DNA from: Rhizophagus irregularis
Lineage: Eukaryota > Glomeromycota > Glomeromycetes > Glomerales > Glomeraceae
Assembly: GCF_026210795.1 (NCBI RefSeq)
Contig: NC_089442.1
Span: 4,740,501 to 4,804,500 of the forward strand
DNA length: 64,000 bases
Direction: 5' to 3'
Part shown: positions 35,061 to 43,423 of the stretch, piece by piece
Numbering within the stretch: position 1 is the first letter of the stretch
Layout of the letters: every line of letters begins with the position of its first letter
Translations under genes and position numbers: made by a program
Notes under the pieces: model-generated
The model's database searches: none
What the model saw: only the letters and a program-made list of their open reading frames with translations
Told to the model about the DNA's origin: nothing

Positions 35061-38000
35061 TTACTTTGTAAAATCAATAATTTCTACTGTGTTATTGTCG
35101 ATATTATCATATTTTTGGAGTTTTTTTGTAAAAGGATTAAGTAATCGAGACTCATAAATAGCTTGTGGGTGAGTATTTTCTTTGTTAAAAGAAGAGAGAT
35201 GCGATCTTCTATATTCTTCTGCTTCTTTGAATTCCTTTGCAATTTGATAGTTGAAATTTGAGCCATCATATTTATATAAATCAATAAATAAATGAATCAA
35301 TTTTAAAATTTCAGATGCTTTTGGTCTATTATATGGATTTGAATCCAAACATTTTTTCATTAAATCAATATAATATTTTGGTGCTATTGGCACATTAATT
35401 TCGGGCCTAATTCCATTGCAAATGTTTAATACTAAATATTCATCATGTGCACGATCGGCAAAGGGTTGTTTTCCAGTTGCTACAAAATACATAATCATAC
35501 CAAAACTATATATGTCTGCTGCCTGAGTATAAGGTTCCCCTTTTAACACTTCAGGAGCTACGTAAGGTATAACTCCGTAAATATTATTTTGATTAGTATT
35601 ACTAGCGTCTCCACATAATCCCATATCTGAAATATGTATAACACTATCATCCATATTATTAGTTACACCAGCAGTATTTAACAATATATTTCCTGTATGA
35701 AAATCACGGTGAACCATCTTCTTTTGATGAAGTTCTTTAAGACCCATACTAATATTATAAAGTATAGTCACTTTTTTGGGCCATTCCAAATTGTTAAAAT
35801 TTTTGTTCATCCAATAATTAAAATTTCCGCCCTTTGCATAGTCAAGAACTATAATGTATTCCTTTGTATCTGGATTTTGAGATATTCCATATATTTTAAG
35901 TATTTTATTTTCTTCATAATAATTTTCGTGATTTTTAATTGAATATAATTCAACCTATTAAAATATGAAAAAGTAATTATATAAAATATATTACTAAGGA
36001 TTAATTTACAGAAAATCACATACCTCATTGAGAAGTTCACTTGTGATATTTTGGGAATTATATAAACATTTTAAAGCAACAACTTTATTTTGATTTCTTG
36101 TATAATTATGTTCCTCTGTATTATAATGTAATGGACCATCCTTCCACATTGCCGAATATACTATAGCAAAACCACCTTTTCCTATCTCTTTAATTTCATC
36201 AAACTGATTGTATGGTATCCATTCAAATACTATATCATTATAGGATTTGATTTTTGATTGCATTTTCCGTATTAAATTAACAATTTTTTCATTTTTACTG
36301 GTCAATTTCATTAAATTATTTTCTAATAACTCATTAATTTGACATGGTTCGCACCATTTATCTGTAAAAACTTTACCACATTTATCACAATAGACGTTTT
36401 GAAGAACTAAAATGTAATTTTTCGTATCTGAATTTTGTGATATCCCATATATTTCAAGTTCATTACTATTAACCTAATAAAATAAAGAAAAATTATTATT
36501 TTATTTTTAAGTATTAAGATTAAATAAAAATTAATACCTCATTTAAAAATCCATTAATAGAATTTTGTGAGTTATATAATTTTAAATTGACTTTTTTACT
36601 CCGTTTTCTTGAATAATTATGTTTATTTGTATCATACTGTAATGGACCATCCTTCCATATTGCAAAATATATTGTAGCAAATTCATCTTTTTCTAATTCT
36701 TTCATATAATTGAATTGATCATACGGTATCCATTCAGCTATAATATCATTATGAGAATTAATTTTTAATTGCCTTTCTTGAATTAAATTATCAATTTTTT
36801 CATTTCCACTGGACCAATTTGTAAAATTTTTTTTTAAATCATTAATTTGACATGGTTTACACCATTTACACCATCTACTATATGTATCTATAAAACTTTC
36901 ACCACATTTATCACAATAAACTCCATACAGAAATAATATAATATAACATTTTGTATAAGGATTTTGAGATATTCCATATAAATGATTACGATTAAAATAT
37001 ATCTCAACCTAGTATTATTACAATAAAAAATTATGTTATTATACTATATAAAATGTTTAAATTAAAATAAAGAAATGATTTATACCTCATTTAGAAATTC
37101 ATTGGTAATATTTTGTGATTTATATAATTTTAAACTGACTCTTATATTCTGATTTCTAGAATATTCATATTTATTTCTGTCATATTTTAATAAACCATCC
37201 TTCCACATTGCTGAATATATTGTAGTAAGTTCATCCTTTCCTAATTCTTTTATATCATTAAGCTGATCATATGGTATCCATTCAACTATAATATCATTAT
37301 AGTTTTTAATTTTTAACTGCATTCCTTGAATTAAATTATTAATTTTTTCATTTCCACTAGTCCAATTTGTAAAATTTTTTTCTAGATCATTTATTTGACA
37401 TGGTTTGCACCACGCATCTGTAAATTTTTTACCACATTTGACGCAATATAAATCTTGTGTAACCATGATATAATTTTTTGTACAAGGATTTTGAGACATT
37501 CCATATAAATGATTACGATTAAAATATATCTCAACCTAGTATTACAATAAGAAAATTTTGTTATTATACTATATAAAATGTTTAAATTAAAATAAAGAAA
37601 TGTTTACCTCATATAGAAATTTATTGGTAATATTTTGTGATTTATATAATATTAAATTGACTTTTATATTCTGGTTCCTTGAATATTCATGTTTATTTCT
37701 GTCATATTTTAATAGACCATCCTTCCACATTGCTGAATATATTGTAGTTAGTTCATCATTTCCTAATTCTTTGATATCATTAAACTGATCATATGGTATC
37801 CATTCAACTATAATATCATTATATATATTAATTTCTAATTGCGTTTCCCGAATTAAATTATCAATATTTTCATTTCTACTGGTCGAGATTTCGGAATCTT
37901 TTTTTATGCCATTAATTAGACATGGATTGCACCATGCGTCATATTGTTTTGCAAATTTTTTACCGCATTTATTACAACAAAAACTATCCGGAAATGATAG

Positions 38001-40376
38001 AATATAATTTTTTGTATAAGGATTTTGAGATATTCCATATAAATCATTTTTTTTAGAATATACCTTAATCTATTATAATAAAAAACATTTGTTATTATAC
38101 GTAAAATAATTAAGTTAAACAGAGAGATTCATACCTCGTTTAAAAATTCATTGGTAATAATTTGTGAGTGATATAATTTTAAATAGACTTTTTCATTCTG
38201 TTGTCTTTTATATTCATATTTATTACTATCATATTTTAATGGACCATCCTTCCATATTGCTGAATACATTGTAGCAAATTCATCTTTTCCTAACTCTTCA
38301 ATATCATCAAACTGATCATATGATATCCATTCAACTATAATATCATCATATTCATTAATTTTTAATTGCATTCCCTGAATTAAACTGTCAATTTTTTCAT
38401 TTCCACTAGTCCAATTTGTAAAATTTTTTTTTAGATCATATATTTGACAACGACACCAATTATAATAATCAAATTTTTTACCGCATTTTTTACAATAAAA
38501 TTCATTCGGAAATAATATAATAAATTCTTTTGTATAAGGATTTTTAGATATTCCATATAAATGATTCCTTCTAAAATGTACATTAACAACCTATTATTAT
38601 AATAAAAAAAACTTTTGTTATTATGCGTAAAATAATTAAATTAAATAAAGAGAGATTCATACCTCATGCACAAATTTATTGGTAATATTTTGTGATTTGT
38701 GTAACTTGAACTTGACTTCCGTATTCGGTTTTCTTAAATATTCACGTTTAATACTGTCATATTGTAATGGACCATCCTTCCATATTGCTGAACATGTTGT
38801 AAAAAATTCATCTTTTCTTAACTCTTTAATATCATCGAGCTGATCATATGATATCCATTCAACTATAAGATCATCATATTTATTAATATTTAATTGCATT
38901 CTCTGAATTAATCTATCAATCTTTTCATTTCCACCGGTCCAATTTGTAAAATTTTTTTCCAGACCATTTATTTGACATGGTTTACACCATTTATAATAAT
39001 CATCTGTAAATTTTTTACCGCATTTATTACAATAAAATCCATCCGAAAATGATATAATATAATTTTTTGTATAAGGACTTTGAGATATTCCATATAAACG
39101 ATTTCTTTTAACATATACCTGAGCGTCCATTATAATAAAAAAATTTTGTTATTATACGTAAAAACATTGCGGCGGATTTATGAAATTTGGCAAAAACCCT
39201 GCTGCGCTCTCGGGAATTAAATTGACTTACAGAACTTTTTTATCTGGAAAAATTGGTTAGACGCAAGATTTGGGGTACAAAAAAATTTTTTGGGGCTCAT
39301 TTCTGACTTTTCACAAATAAATTTGGGACTTAAATAAAAATTTGATGACTAAAATACTGTCAAATATTTATTTAATTTGATATACGGACAAATTTTAGGG
39401 TATTTCATAAATCCGCCATAATGATAATTATGTTAAATAAAGAGATTCATACCTCATTTAAAAATTCTTCGGTAATATTTTGTGAGTTATATAATTTTAA
39501 GTAGACTTTTATATTCTGGTTTCTTGAATATTCATGTTTATTTCTGTCATATTTTAACAAACCATCCTTCCATATTGCCGAATATATTGTAGCAAATTCA
39601 TCTTTTCCTAACTCTTTAATATTATCGAACTGATCATATGATATCCATTCAAATACTATATCATAATGGCCATTTATATTTAATTGCATTTCCTGAATTA
39701 AATTATCAATTTTTTCATTTCCGCTCGTCCAATTTATAAGATTTTTTTTTAGAGTATTCATTTGACATGATTCGCACCATGAATTATAATAATCTGTAAA
39801 TTCTTTACCGCATTTATTACAATACAATCCATACGAAAATAATATAATATAATTTTTTGTATGAGGATTTTGAGATATTCCATATAAATGATTTTTTTCA
39901 AAATATACCATAACCTATTATAAATTTATAATAAAAAATTTTATTATATGTAAAATAATTAAGTTAAATAAAGAGATTCATACCTCATTTAAAAATTCAT
40001 TGGTAATATTTTGTGAGTTACATAATTTTAAATTGACTTTTTTACTCCGTCGTCTTTTATATTCACGTTGATTTGTATCATATTGTAATGGACCATCCTT
40101 CCATATTGCTGAATATAATGTAGTAAATTCATCTTTTCTTAATTCTTTAATATCATTGAATTGATCATATGATATCCATTCAACTATAAGAGCATCATAT
40201 TCCTTAATTTTTAATTGCATTTCCCGAATTAAATTATCAATTTTTTCATTTTCGCTCGTCCAATTTGTAAAACTTTTTTCTAGAACATTTGTTTGACACG
40301 ATTTACACCATCCTAAATATGTATATTCTAAACATTTTTCACATTTATTAGCATAGCCATAACGAGAAAATACCAT
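35061..40376 (-). CDS. Multi-module kinase: eight zinc-ribbon/N-lobe repeats and one C-lobe
   Basis: Nine exons on the minus strand, every intron in phase 0 and GT-AG: 40376-39984, 39914-39453, 39118-38663, 38590-38135, 38069-37608, 37535-37086, 37008-36538, 36473-36024, 35954-35061; about 1,497 residues. Exons 2-8 (about 150-157 codons each) are repeats: a shortened kinase hinge segment (LYGISQNPYTKNYIIL), a zinc ribbon (YCNKCGKKF...WCKPCQIN), a linker (NFTNWTSGNEKIDNLIQ), then the N-lobe (WISYDQFDDIKELGKDEFAT, SAIWKDGPLQYD) ending FLNE. Exon 1 lacks only the hinge. Only exon 8 has a proper glycine loop (EIGKGGFAIVY) and VALK; the others read GKDEFAT or similar. In exon 5 the ATP lysine is replaced (NLILY). 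Exon 9 supplies the only C-lobe: YAKGGNFNYW, HRDFHTGN, SDMG, YVAPEVL. No array-type tail follows; a donor-like GTAAGT at the stop leaves a slightly different end possible. All exons are open, so it appears functional. Confidence 0.75.
39171..39417. mobile_element. 247-bp MITE-like insertion in intron 2 of the multi-module kinase gene
   Basis: GGCGGATTTATGAAAT at 39171-39186 is perfectly repeated in inverse at 39402-39417. CATT stands two bases outside on both sides in inverted sense. The other introns of this gene are only about 65-75 bases, so this insert explains the 334-base intron. It carries no open frame. Confidence 0.7.
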
Positions 40377-42966: not shown

Positions 42967-43423
42967 ATGGAAAATTTGATTTTTTTATTATCAAGTGACG
43001 TACAACCAAAATATAAAAAAAATATAATGTAGTGAATGTAGTAAGTTAATGTCTATACCAGACCAAAATCATCAGATTTGTTATATGTGTTACGAAGCAA
43101 AAAAAGCAATTATACCGAGTGGAAACAAAAATATTGATGATTTTATAAAATATACGCAAGCTGATCGTAATAAAGAATATGGGATGATTTTCGTTCCTTT
43201 TGACAAATTCGAAAATATAGAACTCATTGGTGAAGGAGGGTTTAGTAAAATTTATAAAGCCACTTGGATTGATTGTAAAAATGTCTAGTTGAGGTATTCT
43301 AAATTATTACCTACAAAATATGTCTAAAACAGTTGCTCTTAAAAAGTTTAAAACTCTAAACAATAAACTTTTAAGTATGAAACAAATAATTTAAACTAAT
43401 AAATTTCATTCAGCTCAAGATGT
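42967..43423 (+). pseudogene. Kinase array copy K6, first exon only, truncated
   Basis: The ATG frame (MENLIFLLSSDVQPKY) reaches TAG at about 43030, one frame off from the zinc ribbon that follows (CSEC, CYMC). From 43049 the ribbon, linker and N-lobe read well to GEGGFSKIYKATWIDCK, then frame is lost again around 43280 and the end of exon 1 with its donor is deleted. The intron 1 acceptor and the first bases of exon 2 (CAG / CTCAAGATGTT, as in K7) survive to about 43423, where unrelated DNA begins. No C-lobe is present. Confidence 0.75.

Follow-up and report, generated by a model that had tools for sequence, protein, structure and literature searches.

The window analysed here is a 64,000 nt stretch from the genome of the arbuscular mycorrhizal fungus Rhizophagus irregularis (contig NC_089442.1, positions 4,740,501 to 4,804,500). 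On its minus strand, between positions 40376 and 35061, lies a protein kinase gene in which degenerate copies of the kinase amino-terminal lobe (N-lobe) are repeated in front of one intact N-lobe and a single carboxy-terminal lobe (C-lobe). The gene is one of many such arrays in this genome, a class rather than a single case. We propose a class of N-lobe array kinases in which upstream modules that are dead for adenosine triphosphate (ATP) act as binding modules and probably form an array for recognition or scaffolding that controls a single active kinase, and we give this reading a probability of roughly 0.55. The architecture is well supported; for its function we infer from the sequence that the upstream units probably do not bind ATP and would be independently folded binding modules.

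Structure of the array gene

An earlier interpretation of the window, made from its letters without database searches (the sequence-only reading), had described nine open minus-strand exons joined in phase 0 at GT-AG borders. This gene model was confirmed at 40376-35061, with a joined frame of 1,495 codons and thus a product of 1,495 residues in place of the 1,497 given before. All exon lengths are multiples of 3, and all eight introns are in phase 0 with GT...AG borders as read directly in the window; the cassette exons are symmetric (phase 0-0). Intron sizes are 64-77 nt in seven of the eight cases, and intron 2 measures 334 nt.

Exons 1-8 had been taken to repeat one module. The repetition itself holds, as modules 2-8 are 53-66% identical to module 1 in an alignment over the zinc ribbon, the linker helix and the N-lobe, but the module does not coincide with the exon. 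Exons 2-8 open with a beta4-beta5 segment (LYGISQNPYTKNYII) that is homologous to the start of exon 9, and exon borders are therefore not domain borders. The intron lies directly after the codon of the presumed alphaC glutamate, so that two consecutive exons contribute to each N-lobe, the first its beginning and the second its end. After its completion, an upstream N-lobe enters the next zinc ribbon and not a hinge and a C-lobe. The repeating unit of the protein would be a zinc ribbon, a linker and a complete N-lobe, the latter with five strands by homology. The zinc ribbon has four putative metal-binding cysteines in two CxxC knuckles; Zn_ribbon_NOB1 of Pfam gave one match, which lies below its cut-off. 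A chance origin of the window array is excluded by the identity of the modules and by the existence of paralogous arrays.

Only module 8 has an intact glycine-rich loop (GKGGFA), which agrees with the sequence-only reading, and the loops of modules 1-7 are all degenerate (Table 1). It was also correct that most modules retain the ATP-site lysine of strand beta3: it is present in 6 of the 7 upstream modules, module 5 having I at this position. The glutamate that ends the exon is retained in 8/8 window modules and is presumed, by its position, to be the alphaC glutamate. Exon 8 carries the motifs of a kinase N-lobe, including LNE, and exon 9 is the single C-lobe that had been described (PF07714, E 1.1e-35, profile positions 59-256 of 258), with HRD and APE motifs and with DMG replacing DFG. 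The terminal unit has the sequence motifs of a eukaryotic protein kinase and is predicted to be catalytic. Among the best 60 of 2,255 sequence matches to exon 9 in the PDB, the top match is the tyrosine-protein kinase 7t6f, which we take to be JAK1, with STE20-type and Aurora kinases close behind; Roco4, TAK1, MAP3K9, MAP3K12 and B-raf are also among the best, which gives a mixed picture as to the TKL group. A profile search of the PDB with the modules gave chance-level matches only (best E 0.57).

Array genes across the genome

A search of the genome (146.75 Mb, 32 contigs) with exon 4 yielded 150 scored matches of 4,250 candidates, many of them evenly spaced in series. For reading, 41 stretches (L001-L041) were taken, most of which were picked for having module matches, and module and C-lobe profiles built from the window were run on the window and the first 37 stretches. 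Counting as an array at least 2 module matches with a C-lobe, this set contains 39 arrays with a C-lobe and 236 module matches in total, with 2-13 matches per array. The combination of several degenerate N-lobes, one intact N-lobe and one C-lobe, noted before for the window gene, is thus supported and recurs at many places in the genome. Six stretches (L032-L037) had been picked from the C-lobe list without a module match in the exon 4 search and were intended as single-module controls; all six were found to be arrays, although they do not form a random sample, having been selected from the close relatives of exon 9. L032-L035 and L037 represent a second array type, in which most modules are without a zinc ribbon and the linker follows almost directly after beta4-beta5.

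The first module match starts at a profile position of at least 11, i.e., without beta4-beta5, in 36 of the 39 arrays, often after M-S-S-Q or a similar sequence. At most 33 of these 36 are clean start exons, the lead of L032 having beta4-beta5 and L033 and L037 being truncated where their stretches end. Genome-wide counts are 2,679 for the motif EWI[SP]Y (control 10) and 697 for HRD[FL]H[ST]GNI (control 0), a ratio that is no module count because the two motifs differ in strictness. On contig 1, the sole contig listed in full for EWI[SP]Y, 22 of 66 sites fall into 6 clusters. Twelve EWI[SP]Y sites spaced 467-523 nt on contig 2 (394306-399748, minus strand) are probably a long array. A different-looking kinase subfamily with VYRAKW motifs is represented by three modules in L017 (5763-6994, plus strand), on the strand opposite the array; their glycine loops appear degenerate as well, and the stretch itself showed no C-lobe.

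In a tree of the modules, module k clusters with module k across L017, L018, L019 and L027, which lie on four contigs, module 4 being unresolved, and the same holds across L006-L008 and across L009-L011. In L017/L018/L019/L027 whole arrays were duplicated with the order of modules kept. In the subfamily of the window, fresh exon duplication is seen upstream and last modules form pairs among themselves. The tree does not support one common origin for all degenerate modules, as the last modules are not a single clade. When the loop is read as a two-state character, with G and F at loop positions 4-5 taken as active so that 15 upstream tips count as active, the tree has 13 Fitch changes compared with a mean of 53 in shuffles, with branch support that is often low. 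In L005 (2294-6398, plus strand), the fourth of the 6 modules was recently copied from the last one; it has kept GKGG and lost the following FA and the beta3 alanine; here the decay of the ATP site is apparently caught early.

Residues kept and lost in upstream and last modules

The G-x-G motif of the ATP loop is present in 37 of the 39 last modules and in only 2 of the 197 upstream modules, a number that includes fragments of split modules. The upstream exceptions are module 4 of L005 and module 6 of L033. The last modules without the motif are those of L034, with D for the first G, and of L016, where the module is split and unreadable. At the third loop position, G is found in 38/38 last modules with a letter, whereas D or N occupies this position in 133 of 180 upstream modules with a letter. 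The beta3 alanine, which lines the adenine pocket, is kept in 37/38 last modules compared with 58/189 upstream modules. The beta3 lysine is present in 38/38 last and 161/188 upstream modules, and the presumed alphaC glutamate in 135 of the 162 upstream modules with a letter. Outside five zinc-less loci, all four zinc cysteines are found in 158/169 upstream and 30/34 last modules.

Column entropies, calculated for 164 upstream and 33 last modules of more than 100 residues each, follow the same division. The glycine loop has 2.04 bits upstream compared with 0.47 in the last modules, beta3 has 1.43 compared with 0.72, and alphaC 1.47 compared with 0.96. For beta4-beta5, the zinc ribbon, the linker and EWIPY the difference between upstream and last modules is at most 0.15 bits. 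The upstream decay centres on the ATP site and the elements next to it and is not spread across the module.

The conservation of the beta3 lysine, the presumed alphaC glutamate and beta4-beta5 in upstream modules would also fit intramolecular decoys, in which the pseudo-N-lobes would rival the true N-lobe in binding the C-lobe and so autoinhibit the kinase. The sequence-only reading had suggested decoys that bind the C-lobe in turn, next to scaffold and ligand-sensing roles, which may still hold. We consider such competition quite improbable, as the last N-lobe is held covalently in place via the hinge. In addition, the segment from the intron to YGISQ has 7-10 residues in upstream modules (8-11 when read directly in the window exons) compared with 15-21 in the catalytic unit, in 5/5 arrays (the window array and L001-L004). 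The alphaC-beta4 segment is the main anchor of an N-lobe on its C-lobe. The decoy idea is weakened by this shortening for the subfamily of the window, while other subfamilies are without it. A general truncation of alphaC-beta4 was rejected: among the 25 measurable arrays of the 39, 11 have a longer last junction, 3 an equal one and 11 a shorter one, with acceptors chosen by rule and some junctions unmeasurable.

Probable joining of the exons into one product

Judging from the layout of these loci, the exons probably form one product. Pointing to this are the short gaps of 64-77 nt at seven of the eight introns, the first exons, which are mostly without beta4-beta5, and intron-free fusions of modules. 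In L003, one frame of 330 codons contains both a degenerate and an intact module, and the joint between them has 27 nt, which is too short for an intron. In L038 and L039, modules 1 and 2 are joined without an intron by 18 and 27 nt, respectively, probably through one shared event. L040 has a longer in-frame joint, which may be a stop-free intron. The usual explanation for precise intron loss is recombination with spliced RNA, and this argues that neighbouring modules were spliced together.

It could be asked whether the locus consists of several transcription units, with exons 8-9 as an ordinary kinase gene and the upstream exons as separate genes or pseudogenes. Exons 8-9 alone resemble an ordinary single-module kinase, and there is an in-frame ATG just before exon 3. 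However, the gaps leave little space for terminators and promoters, the beta4-beta5 segment at the start of exon 8 makes sense only after an upstream N-lobe, and in L003 both kinds of module share one intron-free frame. We regard separate units as very improbable.

Alternative splicing, by which varied subsets of cassettes would be joined to the C-lobe exon to give a Dscam-like repertoire, would be possible in frame for any subset of the symmetric phase 0-0 exons. However, a product with another last module would probably be a dead kinase because the intact ATP loop is found in exon 8 alone. Introns of about 70 nt suit constitutive, intron-defined splicing, and exon skipping is rare in fungi. 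At three paralogous loci there is no intron between two modules, so the joining is fixed, which speaks against mutually exclusive exons as well. A splicing repertoire of this kind therefore seems improbable to us.

Selection on the modules

The ratio of nonsynonymous to synonymous substitution rates (dN/dS) was pooled over three sets of colinear paralogous arrays (L017/L018/L019/L027; L006-L008; L009-L011). Upstream modules come out at 0.57 over 57 pairs, last modules at 0.67 over 12 pairs and C-lobes at 0.66 over 12 pairs, the pairs not being independent of one another. A comparison of dN/dS across the eight modules of the window gene, as proposed in the sequence-only reading, gave 0.39-1.15 for the 28 pairs within the array. 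We read these data as purifying selection on the whole chain that is real but loose. The array and the kinase are both fast-evolving, which suits a recognition role and is no proof of it.

The extra N-lobes might also be debris of exon duplication. Unequal crossing-over would multiply a symmetric phase-0 exon, and the additional N-lobes would be carried without function and tolerated because any copy number stays in frame. The phase 0-0 cassette exons of the window and the varying number of module matches per array are consistent with this, as are the near-identical recent copies found as modules 7-9 of L020. In the colinear arrays, however, the dN/dS of upstream modules is not above that of the C-lobes. 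The conservation is selective, with the zinc cysteines and the EWIPY/WKDG core kept while the ATP loop is lost. Moreover, in a neutral simulation with substitutions only, 4.6% of modules were stop-free at a divergence of 0.15 (29% at 0.05). We think that functionless debris is an unlikely explanation for the arrays.

Several observations weigh against the proposed N-lobe array kinases. Two of these also favour debris: a frameshift, a stop or an insertion divides seven modules into two pieces each, with six of the seven belonging to the 39 arrays, and the 21 pairs of upstream modules in the window have dN/dS values of 0.40-1.15, with at least 0.85 in 12 of the 21. Module 2 of L006-L008 has values of 1.05, 2.99 and 1.53, and related pairs enter the dN/dS bootstrap as if they were independent. 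Upstream, beta3 and alphaC are relaxed as well, so the decay extends beyond the ATP loop. Four module groups are without a C-lobe in their stretch (L017+, L023, L024 and L030). They stand outside the counts for the 39 arrays, as do the later stretches L038-L041, of which L038, L039 and L041 hold modules and C-lobe pieces and L040 holds modules only. Of 238 module junctions, 223 allow a donor and an acceptor to be placed in phase 0, with a median intron length of 74 nt, but this test is lenient and without a chance control, and intron lengths were chosen nearest to 72 nt, which biases the median. An AlphaFold2 model of exon 2, aligned with window exons 3-8, reached a mean predicted local distance difference test score (pLDDT) of 37.6 and is uninformative; one exon by itself does not make up a domain, and few sequences stand in the alignment. 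Finally, a shorter product of the window gene is possible, given the insertion in intron 2 and the in-frame ATG that closely precedes exon 3.

Features of the window gene and the element in intron 2

The features of the gene are listed in Table 1. The insertion in intron 2 is a repeat similar to miniature inverted-repeat transposable elements (MITE-like) which has moved into the intron. It has near-perfect terminal inverted repeats (TIRs; GGCGGATTTATG...CATAAATCCGCC). The genome search scored 40 matches, comprising the element of the window and 39 others on many contigs, and the main pieces of the other copies are 74-93% identical.

Table 1. Exons of the proposed N-lobe array kinase gene and the repeat element in its second intron (window positions).
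Feature	Coordinates	Strand	Content
Exon 1	39984..40376	-	Start exon: Met, zinc ribbon, linker and N-lobe beta1-alphaC; RKDEFT, VNLK; without beta4-beta5
Exon 2	39453..39914	-	beta4-beta5 of module 1, then zinc ribbon and pseudo-N-lobe of module 2; GKDEFA, VYLK
TIR element	39171..39417	-	247 nt, inserted in intron 2; repeated elsewhere in the genome
Exon 3	38663..39118	-	Module 3; RKDEFF, VKFK; in-frame ATG 12 nt upstream of exon start
Exon 4	38135..38590	-	Module 4; GKDEFA, VYLK
Exon 5	37608..38063	-	Module 5; GNDELT, VNLI; beta3 lysine lost
Exon 6	37086..37535	-	Module 6; GKDELT, VSLK
Exon 7	36538..37008	-	Module 7; EKDEFA, VNLK
Exon 8	36024..36473	-	Module 8, sole intact N-lobe of the gene; GKGGFAIVY, VALK
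Exon 9	35061..35954	-	beta4-beta5, hinge, single kinase C-lobe (HRDFHTGN, DMG, APE), C-terminal tail

Proposed function of the arrays

In the proposed N-lobe array kinases, splicing across short phase-0 introns would join a start exon, a number n of cassette exons and the C-lobe exon, giving one protein. This protein would consist of n units of zinc ribbon, linker helix and complete pseudo-N-lobe, followed by a zinc ribbon, the intact N-lobe and the C-lobe. The array could recognise partners by avidity or in combination, whether these are other kinases or proteins of foreign or self origin, and this recognition would recruit or gate the terminal kinase in the manner of the pseudokinase domains of JAKs and plant tandem kinases. 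The cassette may have originated when the beta4-beta5 segment of one gene was fused to the zinc-ribbon exon of the next gene and was then duplicated in tandem. Tandem exon duplication together with whole-array duplication would renew the repertoire.

A further step can be offered only tentatively. The zinc-ribbon N-lobe might now be a free-standing, repeatable recognition domain, and the ATP-dead arrays a lineage-specific, fast-evolving sensor repertoire feeding single terminal kinases. Should this be true, it would be a fungal counterpart, in its logic, to immune-receptor repertoires.

The N-lobe of a kinase is usually regarded as one half of a fold that requires both lobes. If the N-lobe array kinases are real, this half can exist as a repeat module that has a dismantled ATP site and retains its core and a zinc ribbon. 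They would also provide a concrete hypothesis for what some members of the very large set of kinases in arbuscular mycorrhizal fungi do.

Comparison with known systems

The expansion of the kinase family in this species is already well known. In the available parts of the respective papers, PF07714 is given as the most frequent motif among inflated genes of R. irregularis (PMC6123716), 2,533 kinase genes are counted in this species and long-read RNA was used (PMC10234402), high-copy kinases are described (PMC8647823) and kinase-related expansions are reported for Glomeromycotina (PMC8778642). The same parts of these four papers contain no description of repeated N-lobes. Among the literature matches listed, the architecture is not described in titles or abstract openings, most subscription papers on these genomes being outside this scope. 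Relatives were sought in viral_contigs (52 pattern matches, 0 confirmed) and genome_contigs (21 pattern matches, 0 confirmed), which says nothing on other mycorrhizal fungi because these collections are viral and prokaryotic. Kwon et al. reportedly surveyed large pseudokinase families, with expansions in fungi among others, in Sci Signal in 2019; we know of no arrays of isolated N-lobes in that survey.

The nearest comparison is found in the window itself. The minus-strand array is flanked on the plus strand (14483-58396) by eight kinases that each have one module and a C-lobe, and by a fragment (43028-43276). All eight kinases have the loop GEGGFSKIY and a phase-0 donor at LNE/GTA. These kinases resemble the array in having the linker, the N-lobe, the C-lobe and a donor after the same glutamate codon, and CxxC pairs are found in 6 of 8 module matches. 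They differ from it by their single module with intact GEGGFSKIY and VALK and by the lack of upstream pseudo-N-lobes. The exon unit probably predates the arrays, because the donor of the single-module kinases has the same place and phase.

Genes with tandem exon duplication share with the array the head-to-tail, in-frame copies of exons within one gene, as far as the available text of PMC9013439 describes them. There they are tied to mutually exclusive use, whereas the single position of the intact ATP loop in the array favours the inclusion of all exons.

Janus kinases are similar to the arrays in that a unit with a degenerate ATP site lies N-terminal to an active kinase and could gate it. 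Their domain order is JH2 pseudokinase followed by JH1 kinase, and JH2 is a complete two-lobed domain that is present once. Janus kinases are also named in the accessible portion of PMC6170490, which deals with plant tandem kinase-pseudokinase proteins (TKPs, e.g., WTK1/Yr15). In TKPs, as in the arrays, a degenerate kinase unit is fused to a kinase. According to that portion, the units of TKPs are kinase-like domains, and this description sets them apart from the array. A TKP- or JAK-like protein would be expected to have two or more kinase-like domains with both lobes each, and the arrays do not show this: among the matches listed, C-lobe profile matches between modules end by position 60 and cover beta4-beta5 only. 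A degenerate unit fused to a kinase is common to all three systems, and in the arrays its degenerate ATP site lies upstream of the kinase, but in the array the N-lobe alone is repeated, with 1-12 upstream module matches, mostly together with a zinc ribbon, in front of a single C-lobe.

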